This document shows, one piece after another, positions 9,862-25,782 of a stretch of 64,000 bases of DNA. Source of the stretch: Gemmatimonadota bacterium (GTDB taxonomy: Bacteria > Gemmatimonadota > Gemmatimonadetes > Gemmatimonadales > Gemmatimonadaceae). Position numbers and translations under genes: made by a program. The stretch covers positions 7,040 through 71,039 of the forward strand of contig JAHFCT010000015.1 in assembly GCA_023249375.1 (NCBI GenBank), written 5' to 3'. Within the stretch, counting starts at the first letter, position 1, and each line of letters starts with the position of its first letter. The notes below the pieces were generated by a model, which had not been told where the DNA came from, did not search any database, and worked only from the letters and a program-made list of their open reading frames with translations.

Positions 9862-9933
9862 TCGCGCTGGCCTCGTAGAGCAACGTACCTAGAGCCCGAG
9901 TGCGTTCGTGCTGGCGGAACGTGTCACGGCTTT

Positions 9934-9970
9934 CCACGGATGATACGGATTGAACGGATGGACACGGATT
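9934..9970. repeat. CCACGGATGA-type dispersed repeat, single arm
   Basis: A run of variants of 'acggat' (ccacggatga, tacggattga, acggatggac, acggatta) fills the spacer between the converging aminopeptidase and helicase genes and supplies the helicase stop codon. It closely matches the arms of the long palindrome at 24631-24785 (both share ccacggatga, acgg and ttgaa in order). It is probably a solo copy of a dispersed intergenic element. Confidence 0.6.
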
Positions 9971-12053
9971 AGTTCGCGCCGAACCGCCCCTTCATCAGCG
10001 CACGCAGGTCCACGACGGGCGTCACGGATGCATCAGGCGGCGGCAACTGCGCCGCCGGTGGTTCAGCGACCACGCGCTGCATTGTGCCGCGCACGCCGCG
10101 GTCGAGGAAGCGCGAGACCTGGTCAAAGGTGTAGTCGGCGCCGCGGCGCGTGTCATACACGTTCAGCGGATACGACACGGCGAGGTGATTGCGCGCGCGG
10201 GTGAGCGCCACGTACATCAGCCGCCGCTCCTCGTCGATCTGATCGTCGGAGCCAAGCGCCCGCGAGAGCGGGAAGTAGCCGTCGACCGCCCAGATGACGA
10301 AGACGGCGTCCCACTCGCGCCCTTTGGCGCTGTGCGCAGTCGAGAGCACCAGCGTGTCGTCCTCGCTGTCGGAACCGAAGCCGAGGTCCTGCGTGCCCTG
10401 CGGCGGCTCGAGCGCGAGCGCGCTGAGGAAGGCGGCACGGCTTGGATAGCCGCCGGCGATGACTTGCAATTGATCAAGATCGGCGAGCCGCGGATCGGGG
10501 CGATCGTACTTCTCGCGCAGGATGTCATCGTAGAGGATGCGCACGCGGGCGATCTCGCGCGCGACGGCGCCTTCGTCAGCCGGAACGCCCGAGCGCAGCC
10601 CGTCGAGCAGGGTAACGAGCGCCTGATGCGCGGCCTTGGCACGCGGCGGCGCGCGGAACTGGCCAAACGCCGCGTGGCTCCACGCGTGCTCGGCCATCAC
10701 CTCCATCGCATTGCGCGCCGTCACCTCGCCGATGCCGGGCATCAGTAGCAAGAGACGATACCAGCTCACTTCGTCGCGTGGATTCTCCAGCACGCGCAGG
10801 AAGGCGAGCACGTCCTTCACGTGCGCCGCCTCGAGGAACTTGAGGCCGCCCCACTTGTCGAACGGGATGTTGCGCGCCGTCAGTTCGATCTCGAGATCGG
10901 CGCTGTGGTAGCCGGCGCGGAAGAGCACCGCGATCTCGTGCAGCGGCGTTCCCTCCTCATGCAGCTCGAGAATGCGGTCGACGACGAAGCGCGTCTGCGT
11001 CGGTTCGTCCTGCGCCGTGACGAGCCACGGGCGGTCGCCGCCGGTGCGCTTGGTAAACAGGTTCTTCGAGTAGCGCTCGCCGGCGCGCGAGATCAGGATG
11101 TTCGACGTGTCGAGGATCGGCTGCGTGGAGCGGTAGTTTTCCTCGAGCGCGACGATCGTCGTGCCGGGAAACTCCTGCGGGAAGTCGAGGATGTTGCGAA
11201 TCGTCGCGCCGCGGAACGAGTAGATGCTCTGCGCGTCGTCCCCGACCGCCGTGATGTTGCGGTGCGCGCGGCACATGCCCTTCAGGATGCGCGCCTGCAG
11301 CAGATTGGTGTCCTGGTATTCGTCAACGAGGATGTGGTCGTACAGGCCGGCGATCTTGTCGGCGAGCGCTGGCACCTGCTCCAGCAGCGTCGCCCAGAAG
11401 AGCAGAAGATCGTCGTAGTCGACGAGATTGCGCTCCTGTTTCCGCTGCGTGTAATCGGCGTAGACCTTCGCGATCTCTTCCTCGTGCTCCACGAAGCGCG
11501 GATACTCGTCGCGCAGCAGCGCGCCGACCGGGATGTCGGTATTCACGTGCCGCGAGTAGACGTGGTGCAGCGTCTCCTTCTTGGGGAACCGCTTGGCGCG
11601 GTCGCCAAAGCCCAGGCGTGCGCGCGAGAACTGCATCAAGTCCTCGGCGTCCGACTGGTCCATGATGGTGAAGTCGGGGCGAATGCCCGCCTGTTCGCCG
11701 AAGCGCCGCAGCAGCCGATGCGCCGTCGCGTGAAACGTCCCGCCATGCACGTGGCGGCTCGTGCTCCCCACGAGGCGCTCGGCGCGCGCGAGCATCTCCT
11801 GCGCCGAGCGGCGCGTGAACGTGAGGAGGAGAATGCGCTCTGGCCGCACGCCGCGTTCGAGCAGGACGCCCACGCGATGGACCAGCGTGCGCGTCTTTCC
11901 CGTTCCCGCGCCCGCGACGATGAGTAGCGGCCCATCGCCGTGTGTGGCCGCACGGCGCTGTGCGTCGTTGAGGCCGTCGGCCGCGCTGCCGCTCTCGCTG
12001 CGGGGCGCGACGTCGCGCTCACGCGCGGCGTAGAGGCGGGGATCGTCGGACAC
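9969..12053 (-). CDS. UvrD/PcrA/Rep-family ATP-dependent 3'-5' DNA helicase
   Basis: 694 residues. All SF1A motifs are visible in order: Walker A GAGTGKT (about 48-54), motif Ia TFTRRSAQEM, motif II VDEYQDTN near 243, motif III GDDAQSIYSFRGA, motif IV LEENYRSTQPIL, motif V STAHSAKGREWDAVFV and motif VI EERRLMYVALTRAR. Such enzymes unwind DNA in repair and replication restart. It is shorter than canonical UvrD/PcrA, so calling it uvrD or pcrA would be over-precise. GTG 12053 is chosen because it gives a normal lead-in (VSDDPRLYAA) before the helicase core. The longer frame to 12293 reads as arginine-rich non-native sequence. The gene is divergent from a TonB-plug protein gene 209 bases away. 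Confidence 0.9.
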   Translation of the reverse strand: MSDDPRLYAARERDVAPRSESGSAADGLNDAQRRAATHGDGPLLIVAGAGTGKTRTLVHRVGVLLERGVRPERILLLTFTRRSAQEMLARAERLVGSTSRHVHGGTFHATAHRLLRRFGEQAGIRPDFTIMDQSDAEDLMQFSRARLGFGDRAKRFPKKETLHHVYSRHVNTDIPVGALLRDEYPRFVEHEEEIAKVYADYTQRKQERNLVDYDDLLLFWATLLEQVPALADKIAGLYDHILVDEYQDTNLLQARILKGMCRAHRNITAVGDDAQSIYSFRGATIRNILDFPQEFPGTTIVALEENYRSTQPILDTSNILISRAGERYSKNLFTKRTGGDRPWLVTAQDEPTQTRFVVDRILELHEEGTPLHEIAVLFRAGYHSADLEIELTARNIPFDKWGGLKFLEAAHVKDVLAFLRVLENPRDEVSWYRLLLLMPGIGEVTARNAMEVMAEHAWSHAAFGQFRAPPRAKAAHQALVTLLDGLRSGVPADEGAVAREIARVRILYDDILREKYDRPDPRLADLDQLQVIAGGYPSRAAFLSALALEPPQGTQDLGFGSDSEDDTLVLSTAHSAKGREWDAVFVIWAVDGYFPLSRALGSDDQIDEERRLMYVALTRARNHLAVSYPLNVYDTRRGADYTFDQVSRFLDRGVRGTMQRVVAEPPAAQLPPPDASVTPVVDLRALMKGRFGAN

Positions 12054-12262
12054 GGCCCCAAATATACACCGAAGCAAAGGGCGGGGGGACCGGTCAACGC
12101 GGAGGCAACCCGACTGGGCGCAATGGCGAATCGCGCGGCGCTCCTGGCCGACTGACCTTCCCTGCGGGACTGTGCGCCGCGTCACTTGCCAGAACGGCCC
12201 GGAAGCGCAAGCGTACGGAGTGCGAGCCGGCGAGCGCCGGCTGCGAGGCCTCGGGAGCCCCC

Positions 12263-13063
12263 ATGCGTTGTGCCGTGGCTGTGGTGCTGGCATTGCTGTC
12301 GGCGCGAGATCTCGCGCGCGCGCAGGAGCTTACGCCGACGATCATCTTCGGCACGGTGCGCAGCGCGGCTGGCGTGGCGCTCCCGAAGGCCGACGTCTGG
12401 GTCGAAGGCACTGACCGGCGTGCGGTCACCAATGATCTGGGCGAGTATCGCATCGATGACGCCCCGAACGGGCACGTGCGGGTGGCGGTGCGTCACTTCG
12501 GCTTTCATCCCGACAGCAAACGCGTCTCGCTCGTGGCGGGTGACACGCGGCAGGTGCGCTTCATTCTCGACGGCATGATGGATGAACTCGACACGGTGCT
12601 CGTCACGGCGGGCGAGCGCTCAAGCCCGCGTTTGCAGGAATTCTGGGATCGCCGGGCGAACGGCATGGGCGTGTTTCTCACGCGCGACCAGATTGTGAAG
12701 CGCCGCGCGTATCGGGTCTCAGATCTCTTTGAAGCGATGATGGGCGTGCGTGTACTCGACGGAGGAACAGTGATCTCGACTCGCACGTTGAACGCCGGGC
12801 GGCGGACCACGGCCCGCACGACGGCGAACGCGTCGCCGGGCGCGTGTTCGATGCAGTACTACGTGGATGGCGTGTTCATGACGCCGGGCACGTTTTCGCT
12901 GGACGAACTCAGCCCCGACATGATTGAAGCGGTCGAGATCTATCGCGGCCCGTCGGAAATCCCGGTCCGCTTCCGGCAGCGCGACACCGCGTGCGGGCTC
13001 ATCGTGATCTGGACACGCGAACCGCCCCTGCCGGTGAAGCGCGATCCGGGCGCGGCCGGCTGA
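12263..13063 (+). CDS. exported carboxypeptidase-regulatory-like plus TonB-plug protein without a barrel
   Basis: 266 residues. A signal peptide (MRCAVAVVLALLSARDLARA) is followed by a CarboxypepD_reg-like Ig domain (IIFGTVRSAAGVALPKADV to about residue 105) and then a plug-like domain (about 130-255) with VLDGGTVISTRT, YYVDGVFM and MIEAVEIYRGPSEIPVRF, the usual TonB-receptor plug signature. The 22-strand barrel that normally follows is absent and the frame closes at residue 266. A short hairpin (12225-12242) and GGGAG precede the ATG. The gap of 209 bases before it, back to the helicase start, holds nothing else recognisable. It may be a barrel-less periplasmic or partner protein; the role is unknown. 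Confidence 0.75.
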   Translation: MRCAVAVVLALLSARDLARAQELTPTIIFGTVRSAAGVALPKADVWVEGTDRRAVTNDLGEYRIDDAPNGHVRVAVRHFGFHPDSKRVSLVAGDTRQVRFILDGMMDELDTVLVTAGERSSPRLQEFWDRRANGMGVFLTRDQIVKRRAYRVSDLFEAMMGVRVLDGGTVISTRTLNAGRRTTARTTANASPGACSMQYYVDGVFMTPGTFSLDELSPDMIEAVEIYRGPSEIPVRFRQRDTACGLIVIWTREPPLPVKRDPGAAG

Positions 13064-24347: not shown

Positions 24348-24566
24348 ATGCTGCGCACCATCTTTGGGATTGGCGTTCTTGCCCTGGTCGGCCTGTTCGC
24401 CCTCAAGATCTTCTTCGGGCTCTTCGGCGCCCTGTTCGGGATCTTCTTCTTGCTGCTTGGCTGGGCGGTGCGCATCGCCATCGTCGGCGGCATCATCTAT
24501 CTGATCCTGCGGCTCTTCATGCCGGAGACGGCCAAGAAAATTGAAGAGAGCTTCAATAAGCCGTGA
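24348..24566 (+). CDS. small two-helix membrane protein, unknown function
   Basis: 72 residues. Two hydrophobic stretches follow directly on each other, FGIGVLALVGLFALKIFFGL and LFGIFFLLLGWAVRIAIVGG, and a third weaker one (IIYLILRLFM) runs into the charged tail PETAKKIEESFNKP. CGAGGT seven bases upstream supports ATG 24348; ATG 24318 is an in-frame alternative adding ten residues. It is divergent from lipA and followed after about 20 bases by a strong hairpin, so it looks like a monocistronic unit. No family is recognised. Confidence 0.7.
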   Translation: MLRTIFGIGVLALVGLFALKIFFGLFGALFGIFFLLLGWAVRIAIVGGIIYLILRLFMPETAKKIEESFNKP

Positions 24567-24587: not shown

Positions 24588-24617
24588 AGGGGCGCGATCC
24601 TTCGTGATCGCGCCCCT
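24588..24617 (+). terminator. hairpin terminator after the small membrane gene
   Basis: A perfect 11-bp stem (GGGGCGCGATC / GATCGCGCCCC, extended by an A-T pair) with a six-base loop starts 22 bases past the stop codon. There is no strong T tract, so it may stop RNA polymerase with help or protect the 3' end. Confidence 0.65.
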
Positions 24618-24630
24618 TGGCGCTTCTGCT

Positions 24631-24785
24631 GCCGACCACGGATGATGCGGTTCTGGCGGATCGCCGCGGATATGGCGAAGAACTTGGGGGTGTGAGATGC
24701 CGCGAATCTCGGCGTTGCACACCCCCATTGAAATGTCGTTGCCTTATCCGAACGATCTATTCAAACCGTGTCATCCGTGGTCGGC
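24631..24785. repeat. 155-bp nested palindrome (MITE-like or structured RNA)
   Basis: Perfect 15-bp terminal inverted repeats (GCCGACCACGGATGA / TCATCCGTGGTCGGC) are followed by imperfectly complementary arms sharing CGGTT, GATCG and GGATA in order. An inner perfect 9-bp repeat, GGGGGTGTG (24686) / CACACCCCC (24718), encloses a further small stem. The whole can fold as one long hairpin. It fills the spacer between two converging genes and encodes no protein. An arm-like copy occurs at 9934-9970. Confidence 0.75.
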
Positions 24786-24828
24786 AATTGCGGTTGGCGT
24801 AACGGTCGCCCGCACGAGCCAGCCACGA

Positions 24829-25782
24829 TCATCTGAGCCCCTCAACAACCGCCCACGCGAGCATCGGCAGCATGATCTCGTGGTGCCCTGTCAGTTCGTA
24901 GCCGGCGCCGCCGGCCATCGTCGGGCGCTGCACGACGTTGACGTGCGGCCGGTAGTGACGCTGCATGTCGATGTCGCACGTGGTGAAGTCGGTGGGGCGT
25001 CCGCTGTTGAGGTTGCGGGCAACAGTCAGCGCCTTGAGGAAAACCTCGGGCATGATCACGGCGCTGCCGCAGTTCAGCACCACACCGCCGTCGTGCAACC
25101 GGTCCACGGTCGCCGCGAGCCGGCGGAAGTCGCGATGACTCGTATCGCCGATGGCCGCTCCGTTGGCGGCCGGATGCTGATGAATGATCTCAGCGCCGAG
25201 GGCTGCGTGCACCGTGACGCCGACGCCGGCGCGGTGCGCCTGCAAAATGACGCTCAGTTCCGGATGCGCGAGCGATTGCTCGGACTCGAGGGCGCGGGCG
25301 ACGCTCTCGCCCATGCCCCATTCGCATTCCATCCCAGCGGTGAACGCCTGGTTGAGTCCGCGTCCGGTCTCTTCGGCCATGCCAAAGGTGCCGTCGCGCA
25401 GCCCTGCGGCCACGTCTTCGCTCGTCGCGCCGAAGCGCGCGATCTCATAGTCGTGGATTGCCGCCGAGCCGTTCATCGCGATGTCCGTGATGACGCCGCG
25501 GCGCATCAGGTCGATGAGCACCGGGCCGACGCCCGTCTTCACGACGTGGCCGCCGAGCATGGCGATGACGGCGCGATTGCTGCGGTGCGCCCGCACCACG
25601 GCGTCAACGACGCGGCGCAAATCGGCGGCCTTGAGAACGTCGGGCAGCGAACGCATGAACGCGCCGAACGAGTGGTCCGCCGCCGGCGGCGTGGCAAACT
25701 CGCTGGCGCTCACCTTGTTCGGGCGGCCGGCCACCGGAATGGTGCGGACCTTCGAGAGGTCGGCTTCGCGGGGCGTGCTCAC
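24829..25782 (-). CDS. conserved protein of unknown function (deoxyhypusine-synthase-like layout)
   Basis: 317 residues from a GTG start that overlaps the stop of the DUF3108 gene (GTGA). The sequence is well ordered and clearly a real protein. Notable segments are AVIAMLGGHVVKTGVGPVL, RGVITDIAMNGSAAIHDYE, FGATSEDVAAGLRDGTFGMA and HAALGAEIIHQHPAANGAAI. The glycine-rich 'GGH..K.G' start, the 'A.NG...HD' turn and repeated alpha/beta units recall a Rossmann-like deoxyhypusine synthase fold, but no catalytic Lys can be assigned with confidence. The gene ends a run of GT4, GT2 and DUF3108 genes. The function is not known and the fold comparison is inference. Confidence 0.55.
   Translation of the reverse strand: MSTPREADLSKVRTIPVAGRPNKVSASEFATPPAADHSFGAFMRSLPDVLKAADLRRVVDAVVRAHRSNRAVIAMLGGHVVKTGVGPVLIDLMRRGVITDIAMNGSAAIHDYEIARFGATSEDVAAGLRDGTFGMAEETGRGLNQAFTAGMECEWGMGESVARALESEQSLAHPELSVILQAHRAGVGVTVHAALGAEIIHQHPAANGAAIGDTSHRDFRRLAATVDRLHDGGVVLNCGSAVIMPEVFLKALTVARNLNSGRPTDFTTCDIDMQRHYRPHVNVVQRPTMAGGAGYELTGHHEIMLPMLAWAVVEGLR

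Follow-up and report, generated by a model that had tools for sequence, protein, structure and literature searches.

Within the 64,000-nt window (the whole stretch of Gemmatimonadota DNA that was analysed) a long hairpin lies between two converging genes, as an earlier note on this DNA had described; a short plus-strand gene that is conserved in congeners ends at 24566, and a minus-strand ORF occupies 24829-25782. The perfect 15-bp ends that had been noticed are present (GCCGACCACGGATGA at 24631-24645 and its reverse complement at 24771-24785), and a repeat search of the window located outer arms at 24630-24652 and 24764-24786 that are 91% complementary, with an inner inverted pair at 24685-24705 and 24707-24727. 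The MFE of the hairpin was -103.6 kcal/mol compared to -60.25 (sd 4.03) in 200 shuffles (z -10.8), none of which was equal or better, and with the inverted arms located this bears out the view of one long hairpin. The description of a 155-bp nested palindrome with imperfect arms stood in part. The hairpin and its inverted arms are real, but the true span is about 179 bp and the arms consist of short units in a row, not of a single imperfect palindrome. Conservation across 60 arms of 30 copies ends approximately 17 nt outside CCACGG, in agreement with the empty gaps of congeners, which places the whole gene-less element at 24619-24797 (boundaries approximate, ±3 nt).

The left arm (24619-24683, plus strand) consists of an outer part followed by the units CCACGGATGA-TGCGGTTCTG-GCGGATCGCC-GCGGATAT, as defined by an arm alignment and an arm model whose match (G000:C41:31664-31716, window 24625-24677) was aligned with 38 other arms. 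It is followed by an inner stem-loop, the inverted pair TGGGGGTGTG...CACACCCCCA (24684-24728), a sequence absent from most copies; this inner part of the window copy folds at z -5.1. The right arm (24740-24797, minus strand) carries the units of the left arm on the opposite strand and then the outer part (model match G000:C41:31779-31829, window 24740-24790). Directly left of the element is a terminator-like GC-rich hairpin, GGGGCGCGATC...GATCGCGCCCCTT (24589-24618), which an alignment of the gap with 10 congeners shows to be present in those genomes as well, and which therefore marks the insertion point and lies outside the element. Taken by itself, the 10-bp motif CCACGGATGA at one mismatch was not above chance in the window, unlike the longer arm and the paired layout, both of which exceed chance there.

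All 10 congeners keep synteny on the lipoyl synthase side and at the next gene, and the insert of about 180 bp is absent from every one of them, being found in the window's own genome (G000) directly after the terminator-like hairpin, whose GC-rich stem the congeners have in common. The window hairpin is thus a lineage-specific insertion. A related arm had also been reported at 9934-9970, where it was said to supply a gene's stop codon, and both statements hold: it is the window's only match at up to three mismatches (0 expected by chance), the arm model finds it as a relative of the hairpin (G000:C41:16964-17008), and the TAA at 9969-9971 is formed from the arm's last two bases and the next base. 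This solo arm (9925-9971, plus strand) lies at the 3' end of the gene for a UvrD-type helicase (minus-strand ORF 9969-12293), and it is absent from the homologous gap in the eight congeners compared (G003 and G008 left out).

The genome search proposed in the earlier note confirmed a dispersed element. G000 (3.81 Mb, 120 contigs, 95.9% complete) is, like most of the relatives used, a draft genome, and searching it with the window hairpin returned many diverged copies; nearly all of 22 further loci examined fold as a similar long hairpin. With an arm model made from 39 arms, 75 matches at E<=1 were obtained among 150 of the 1545 first-look candidates, the number that was scored, and after the three weakest had been omitted the other 72 resolved into 30 facing pairs and 11 single arms. 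The paired elements span 123-217 bp, clustering near 123 and 166 bp, and their arms are rows of CACGGAT-like units of about 9-10 nt (consensus CCACGGATGA CACGGATTGA ACGGATGGA CACGGATC), about four per arm, opposed around a variable inner stem. Arms of this type at E<=1e-6 were present in 8 of the 11 genus genomes and in 1 of 49 other relatives. One single arm (G000:C70:1790-1838) lies within an open ftsK-type frame (FtsK_alpha; L187, G000:C70:1250-2350), where the reading frame continues across it, within the linker that precedes the alpha domain.

A structured RNA, one of the possibilities first raised, found no support in these tests. Rfam gave no matches in the window, and in covariation alignments that took in 10 of the 12 short copies and 9 of the 10 long ones, two-sided changes affected 5 of the 41 and 8 of the 40 pairs, with covariation terms of +0.65 and +0.73 that are slightly unfavourable. 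The units themselves are conserved, as expected for protein-binding sites. The inner stems fold at z<-2 in 9 of 28 copies (mean -1.65) and differ in sequence, a trend rather than a rule.

The other possibility raised, an element of MITE or REP type, fits in behaviour (lineage-specific insertion, paired and single arms) but not in membership of the Y1/RAYT class. The Y1 transposase (PF01797) had no matches in G000, while 5 of 14 control genomes were positive, and a RAYT was rejected accordingly. The remark that no transposase is present also proved right for the surroundings of the hairpin. No recognised transposase gene occurs in the stretches examined between neighbouring arms on contigs C1 and C70. 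MITEs are short and gene-less, with inverted ends and empty sites in relatives. The hairpins resemble them in all four respects, and it could be that they are MITE-like elements moved by an undetected transposase, with the gene described below as a passenger or a common neighbour. The size classes, near 123 and 166 bp, are in keeping with this, and the transposase screen of the whole genome covered one family, Y1. The target duplications that the earlier note had suggested looking for did not appear: no duplication of fixed length was detected in 30 copies (best z 3.9 in 10,710 offset/length tests, chance level), although those of old copies may have been lost. With no matching transposase found either, in the Y1 screen or in the stretches examined, and with GxxExxY in place of a transposase in the forms that have matching ends, we regard a MITE of this kind as unlikely. 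Genes of the TIGR02436 family, four-helix-bundle proteins of the 23S intervening-sequence kind, number 3 to 7 in each genus genome (G000-G010), and this lead was dropped since none adjoins a CACGGAT arm in G000.

The GxxExxY family (TIGR04256) has exactly one match in G000, on the minus strand at C1:51709-52041, and a hairpin copy starts 125 nt beyond the 5' end, upstream of the gene. The earlier note, made from the letters alone, had no means of seeing this link. The 111-kb contig that carries it holds 7 of the 41 elements (P 1.7e-4). Five of the six paired copies on this contig (G000:C1:18247-52289) belong to a 122-124-nt class, the longer class being mostly elsewhere.

The linked protein, of about 110 residues, is a clear member of the TIGR04256/PF13366 family, with all three linked proteins searched matching the PD-(D/E)XK nuclease profile PF13366 at E 1e-36 to 3e-35. 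A regular expression for the D..ExK..QxxxY motif matched 66 of 76 stop-free proteins, and in 33 aligned proteins D60 and K72 are invariant and E70, Q84 and Y88 nearly so; the nuclease motifs are intact in most proteins. The structure model (pLDDT 97.4) is nearest, among solved structures, to SSO0001 (Foldseek E 1e-4; Z 10.5, 3.2 Å over 95 residues), which we take to be a Cas4 nuclease. It is followed by AF1548 (Z 9.0), a restriction-like protein (Z 8.3) and Hjc (Z 7.6), matches below Z 8 being ones that may show only a common arrangement; lambda exonuclease was also among the Foldseek matches, and AddAB came lower down. In predicted fold and motif the protein is therefore similar to the Cas4/lambda-exonuclease-like PD-(D/E)XK enzymes, but it has about half the chain length of SSO0001 (111 vs 202 residues), and Cas4 models matched two of four proteins weakly (E 0.003-0.009). 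At locus L032 (5132-5764, minus strand) the longest GxxExxY ORF runs through the upstream hairpin (N-terminal stretch, e.g., LIRVDPFDPCHPW); automatic annotation may place the starts of such genes too early. The family has been described solely at the protein level and is named in PMC8934634; repeats linked to it were not found in the literature searched, which lies mostly outside subscription journals and preprints.

Named genomes were scanned with a small GxxExxY alignment, and the loci used come from the best 80 of at least 566 ranked relatives, so that the sample is not random; 78 loci with at least 120 nt on both sides were kept and two were dropped. When the 300 nt upstream of each gene was compared with the reverse complement of the 300 nt downstream, similarity was far above controls: in the inverted orientation 65 of 78 loci passed the 95th percentile of mismatched pairs and 48 passed the 99th, whereas in the direct orientation 20 and 16 of 78 did so. 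Inverted arms scoring above 30 flanked 60 of the 78 genes, compared with 1 of 468 same-locus pseudo-gene controls, and the arms lie at median distances of 42 and 43 nt from the GxxExxY domain. GxxExxY genes thus lie between inverted unit arms in many bacterial phyla; at 13 of the 78 named loci no inverted arms exceeded the 95th percentile of the mismatched pairs. The simpler rule of a hairpin upstream of every GxxExxY gene failed on the named loci (6 of 79 reached the 95th percentile of the controls) and was replaced by arms on both sides; in the family of the window genome itself, it is common for complete hairpins to stand upstream of the gene or to flank it on both sides.

The nearness of the arms to the gene is also what would be seen if they were operator-like or RNA-processing sites at which GxxExxY binds or cuts DNA or transcripts for self-control, the scattered copies then being regulatory or terminator sites. 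The hairpins that relatives carry upstream of the gene, or flanking it on both sides, would suit this, as would the position of the window copy between converging genes and adjoining a terminator-like hairpin. Lineage-specific copies, however, are a better fit to parasites than to operators, the arms show little covariation, and a regulatory role could be secondary to mobility. We consider this explanation improbable.

The arms of the named loci are built from tandem 9-11-nt units whose sequence varies by locus, the types including CACGGAT, GCGGATTA, ACAGGATTA, CGCCAAGA and CACAGAG as well as CACGGAG, CACGAAA, CGCAAAG and CCAGGAAA. Protein similarity and arm similarity were correlated over 65 loci (r 0.35; 0 of 5000 permutations), and remained so among pairs of different phylum label (r 0.30; 0 of 5000 permutations), using 15 labels (one of them 'unknown') that were assigned by hand from record titles. 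For example, GCCACGGAT..ACACGGA is common to L170 (Proteobacteria) and L127/L149 (Verrucomicrobia), and CGCCAAGA to L119 (Chloroflexi), L111 (Deferrisomatales), L135 (Planctomycetes) and L139 (Cyanobacteria); there are also pairs of close proteins whose arms are unlike each other (e.g., L140/L111 and L159/L144). In these comparisons the unit sequence follows the protein sequence, even between phyla. MITE-like elements moved by another enzyme would leave this tracking unexplained, and also the GxxExxY cargo of the gene-bearing forms that share these arms.

Dispersal was also seen for three further arm types, mostly in genomes where a GxxExxY gene bears them. A CACGGAG hairpin adjoins the GxxExxY gene of G001, where 80 strand-wise matches represent at least 40 distinct copies; matches elsewhere numbered 77 in G005, 48 in G002, 31 in G010, 16 in G008, 6 in G004 and 5 in G003, all copy counts being lower bounds, and none were found in G000, G006, G007 or G009 at the thresholds used. 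The GACAGGAT hairpin of G025 had 80 matches in that genome and one weak match in G023; 10 other genomes had none. The pattern GCCACGGATTGAACACGGATTGAACACGGA (up to three mismatches) occurred 35 times in G062 (L170), 9 times in G060 (L149) and once in G061 (L127), with no occurrence in 11 other genomes and none for the backward control; this GCCACGGAT type occurs in three genomes, each with a GxxExxY gene bearing such arms. Twenty GCCACGGATTGAACACGGATTGAACACGGA loci examined were mostly gene-less hairpins whose loops measure 7 to 97 nt, and at L227, L228 and L232 a GxxExxY-like frame lies between the arms (L228 and L232 are opposite ends of a single G060 locus). Gene-less hairpins and arm-gene-arm forms with the identical arm type thus occur in one genome.

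The window-type GxxExxY gene adjoins the same molybdopterin oxidoreductase gene in G000, G003, G004, G005, G008 and G010, and the second-type gene adjoins the same HTH_18 (AraC-like) gene in G001, G003, G005, G006 and G010. The same neighbour genes across congeners indicate that the GxxExxY gene stayed in place while hairpins spread. In G004, G008 and G010 a CACGGAT arm and a GxxExxY match are no more than 300 nt apart. Crowding around the gene, which was looked at in G001 and in G000 (the 7 of 41 elements above), was clear in G001: of the 40 copies listed, 28 are on the gene's 700-kb contig, and 10 of these 28 lie within 20 kb of the gene vs 1.6 expected (8 vs 1.5 when the two gene-flanking copies are set aside), with none of 100,000 random placements as close to the gene. 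In G006, the second-type orthologue (L253, G006:C157:58200-60400) has Ala in place of the ExK Glu and Pro in place of the QxxxY Gln; there is no CACGGAG unit in the 2.2 kb around it, and the genome has no match to CACGGAT or CACGGAG arms at the thresholds used. This orthologue lacking the ExK glutamate in a copy-free genome is a single case. There are exceptions to the pairing of gene and copies: G002 has 48 CACGGAG matches and no GxxExxY match, G004 (6) and G008 (16) have CACGGAG matches with no gene of that type found, G003 has a window-type gene and no CACGGAT arm at E<=1e-6, and G010 has a single such arm.

Chi-like or restriction-like self-markers would be another role for the units, serving a DNA-degrading or defence activity that depends on GxxExxY. 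Its appeal lies in the fold (SSO0001 nearest, with lambda exonuclease, Hjc and AddAB lower down) and in the weak Cas4 model matches already mentioned, but the four proteins searched gave no clear defence-family match, and about forty clustered copies in one genome with none in several congeners would be an odd layout for a marker. We therefore think this very improbable.

It is rather probable, in our judgement, that the hairpin is a gene-less mobile repeat whose likely driver is the GxxExxY PD-(D/E)XK nuclease encoded beside its own copies of the repeat. The linkage and the insertion are established by the comparisons above, and from them we infer nuclease-driven copying. In such a process the GxxExxY protein would recognise units of its own arm type and would cut DNA at or near the hairpin, as a cruciform or single strand, after which host break repair or template switching might install a copy of the hairpin elsewhere, more often nearby. 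No PD-(D/E)XK nuclease of this fold is known to join strands, which makes the copying step proposed here guesswork. Our data suggest that the arrangement of a gene with matching repeats represents a form of mobile DNA not described before, driven by a nuclease instead of a transposase.

The closest parallel in logic is the REPIN/RAYT system. As set out by Bertels and Rainey (2011; PMC3116915), REPINs are scattered inverted doublets that fold as hairpins and are accompanied by single arms, several types can share a genome, each near its own enzyme gene, and the gene is fixed and single-copy while the hairpins spread without it. On that account the likeness extends to the scattered inverted doublet hairpins with single arms (30 pairs and 11 single arms here) and to an enzyme gene fixed in position beside its own repeat type, with GxxExxY in the place of RAYT. 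The enzyme here, however, is a PD-(D/E)XK nuclease and not a Y1 tyrosine transposase, and the arms are rows of 9-11-nt units amounting to 123-217 bp per element in G000. As the defining enzyme is absent, the parallel is one of function and not of membership. We put at about even the chance that GxxExxY is a second, independently evolved class of RAYT-like driver in a dozen or more phyla, in which each nuclease reads its own code of 9-11-nt units and copies matching hairpins by cut-and-repair, with no transposase involved. If true, this would explain a common class of scattered hairpins (CACGGAT, CACGGAG, CACAGAG, CGCCAAGA and ACAGGAT types) and would assign a role to a nuclease family that is widespread but has no known function; REPIN-like parasitism would then have arisen through an enzyme unrelated to RAYT, and the copying of hairpins without a transposase would represent a new kind of mobility. 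The pairing of proteins with units would also provide a natural collection of small nucleases whose short DNA units differ.

In G003, two window-type GxxExxY genes that are almost the same in sequence lie at contig ends (G003:C64:13976-14290 and G003:C68:254-574), one adjoining the oxidoreductase gene and one the other neighbour, either a split locus or a recent duplicate; the repeats upstream of them are not of the CACGGAT type. At L071 (G015) and L088/L192 (G004), two near-identical tandem hairpins lie directly upstream of the GxxExxY gene.
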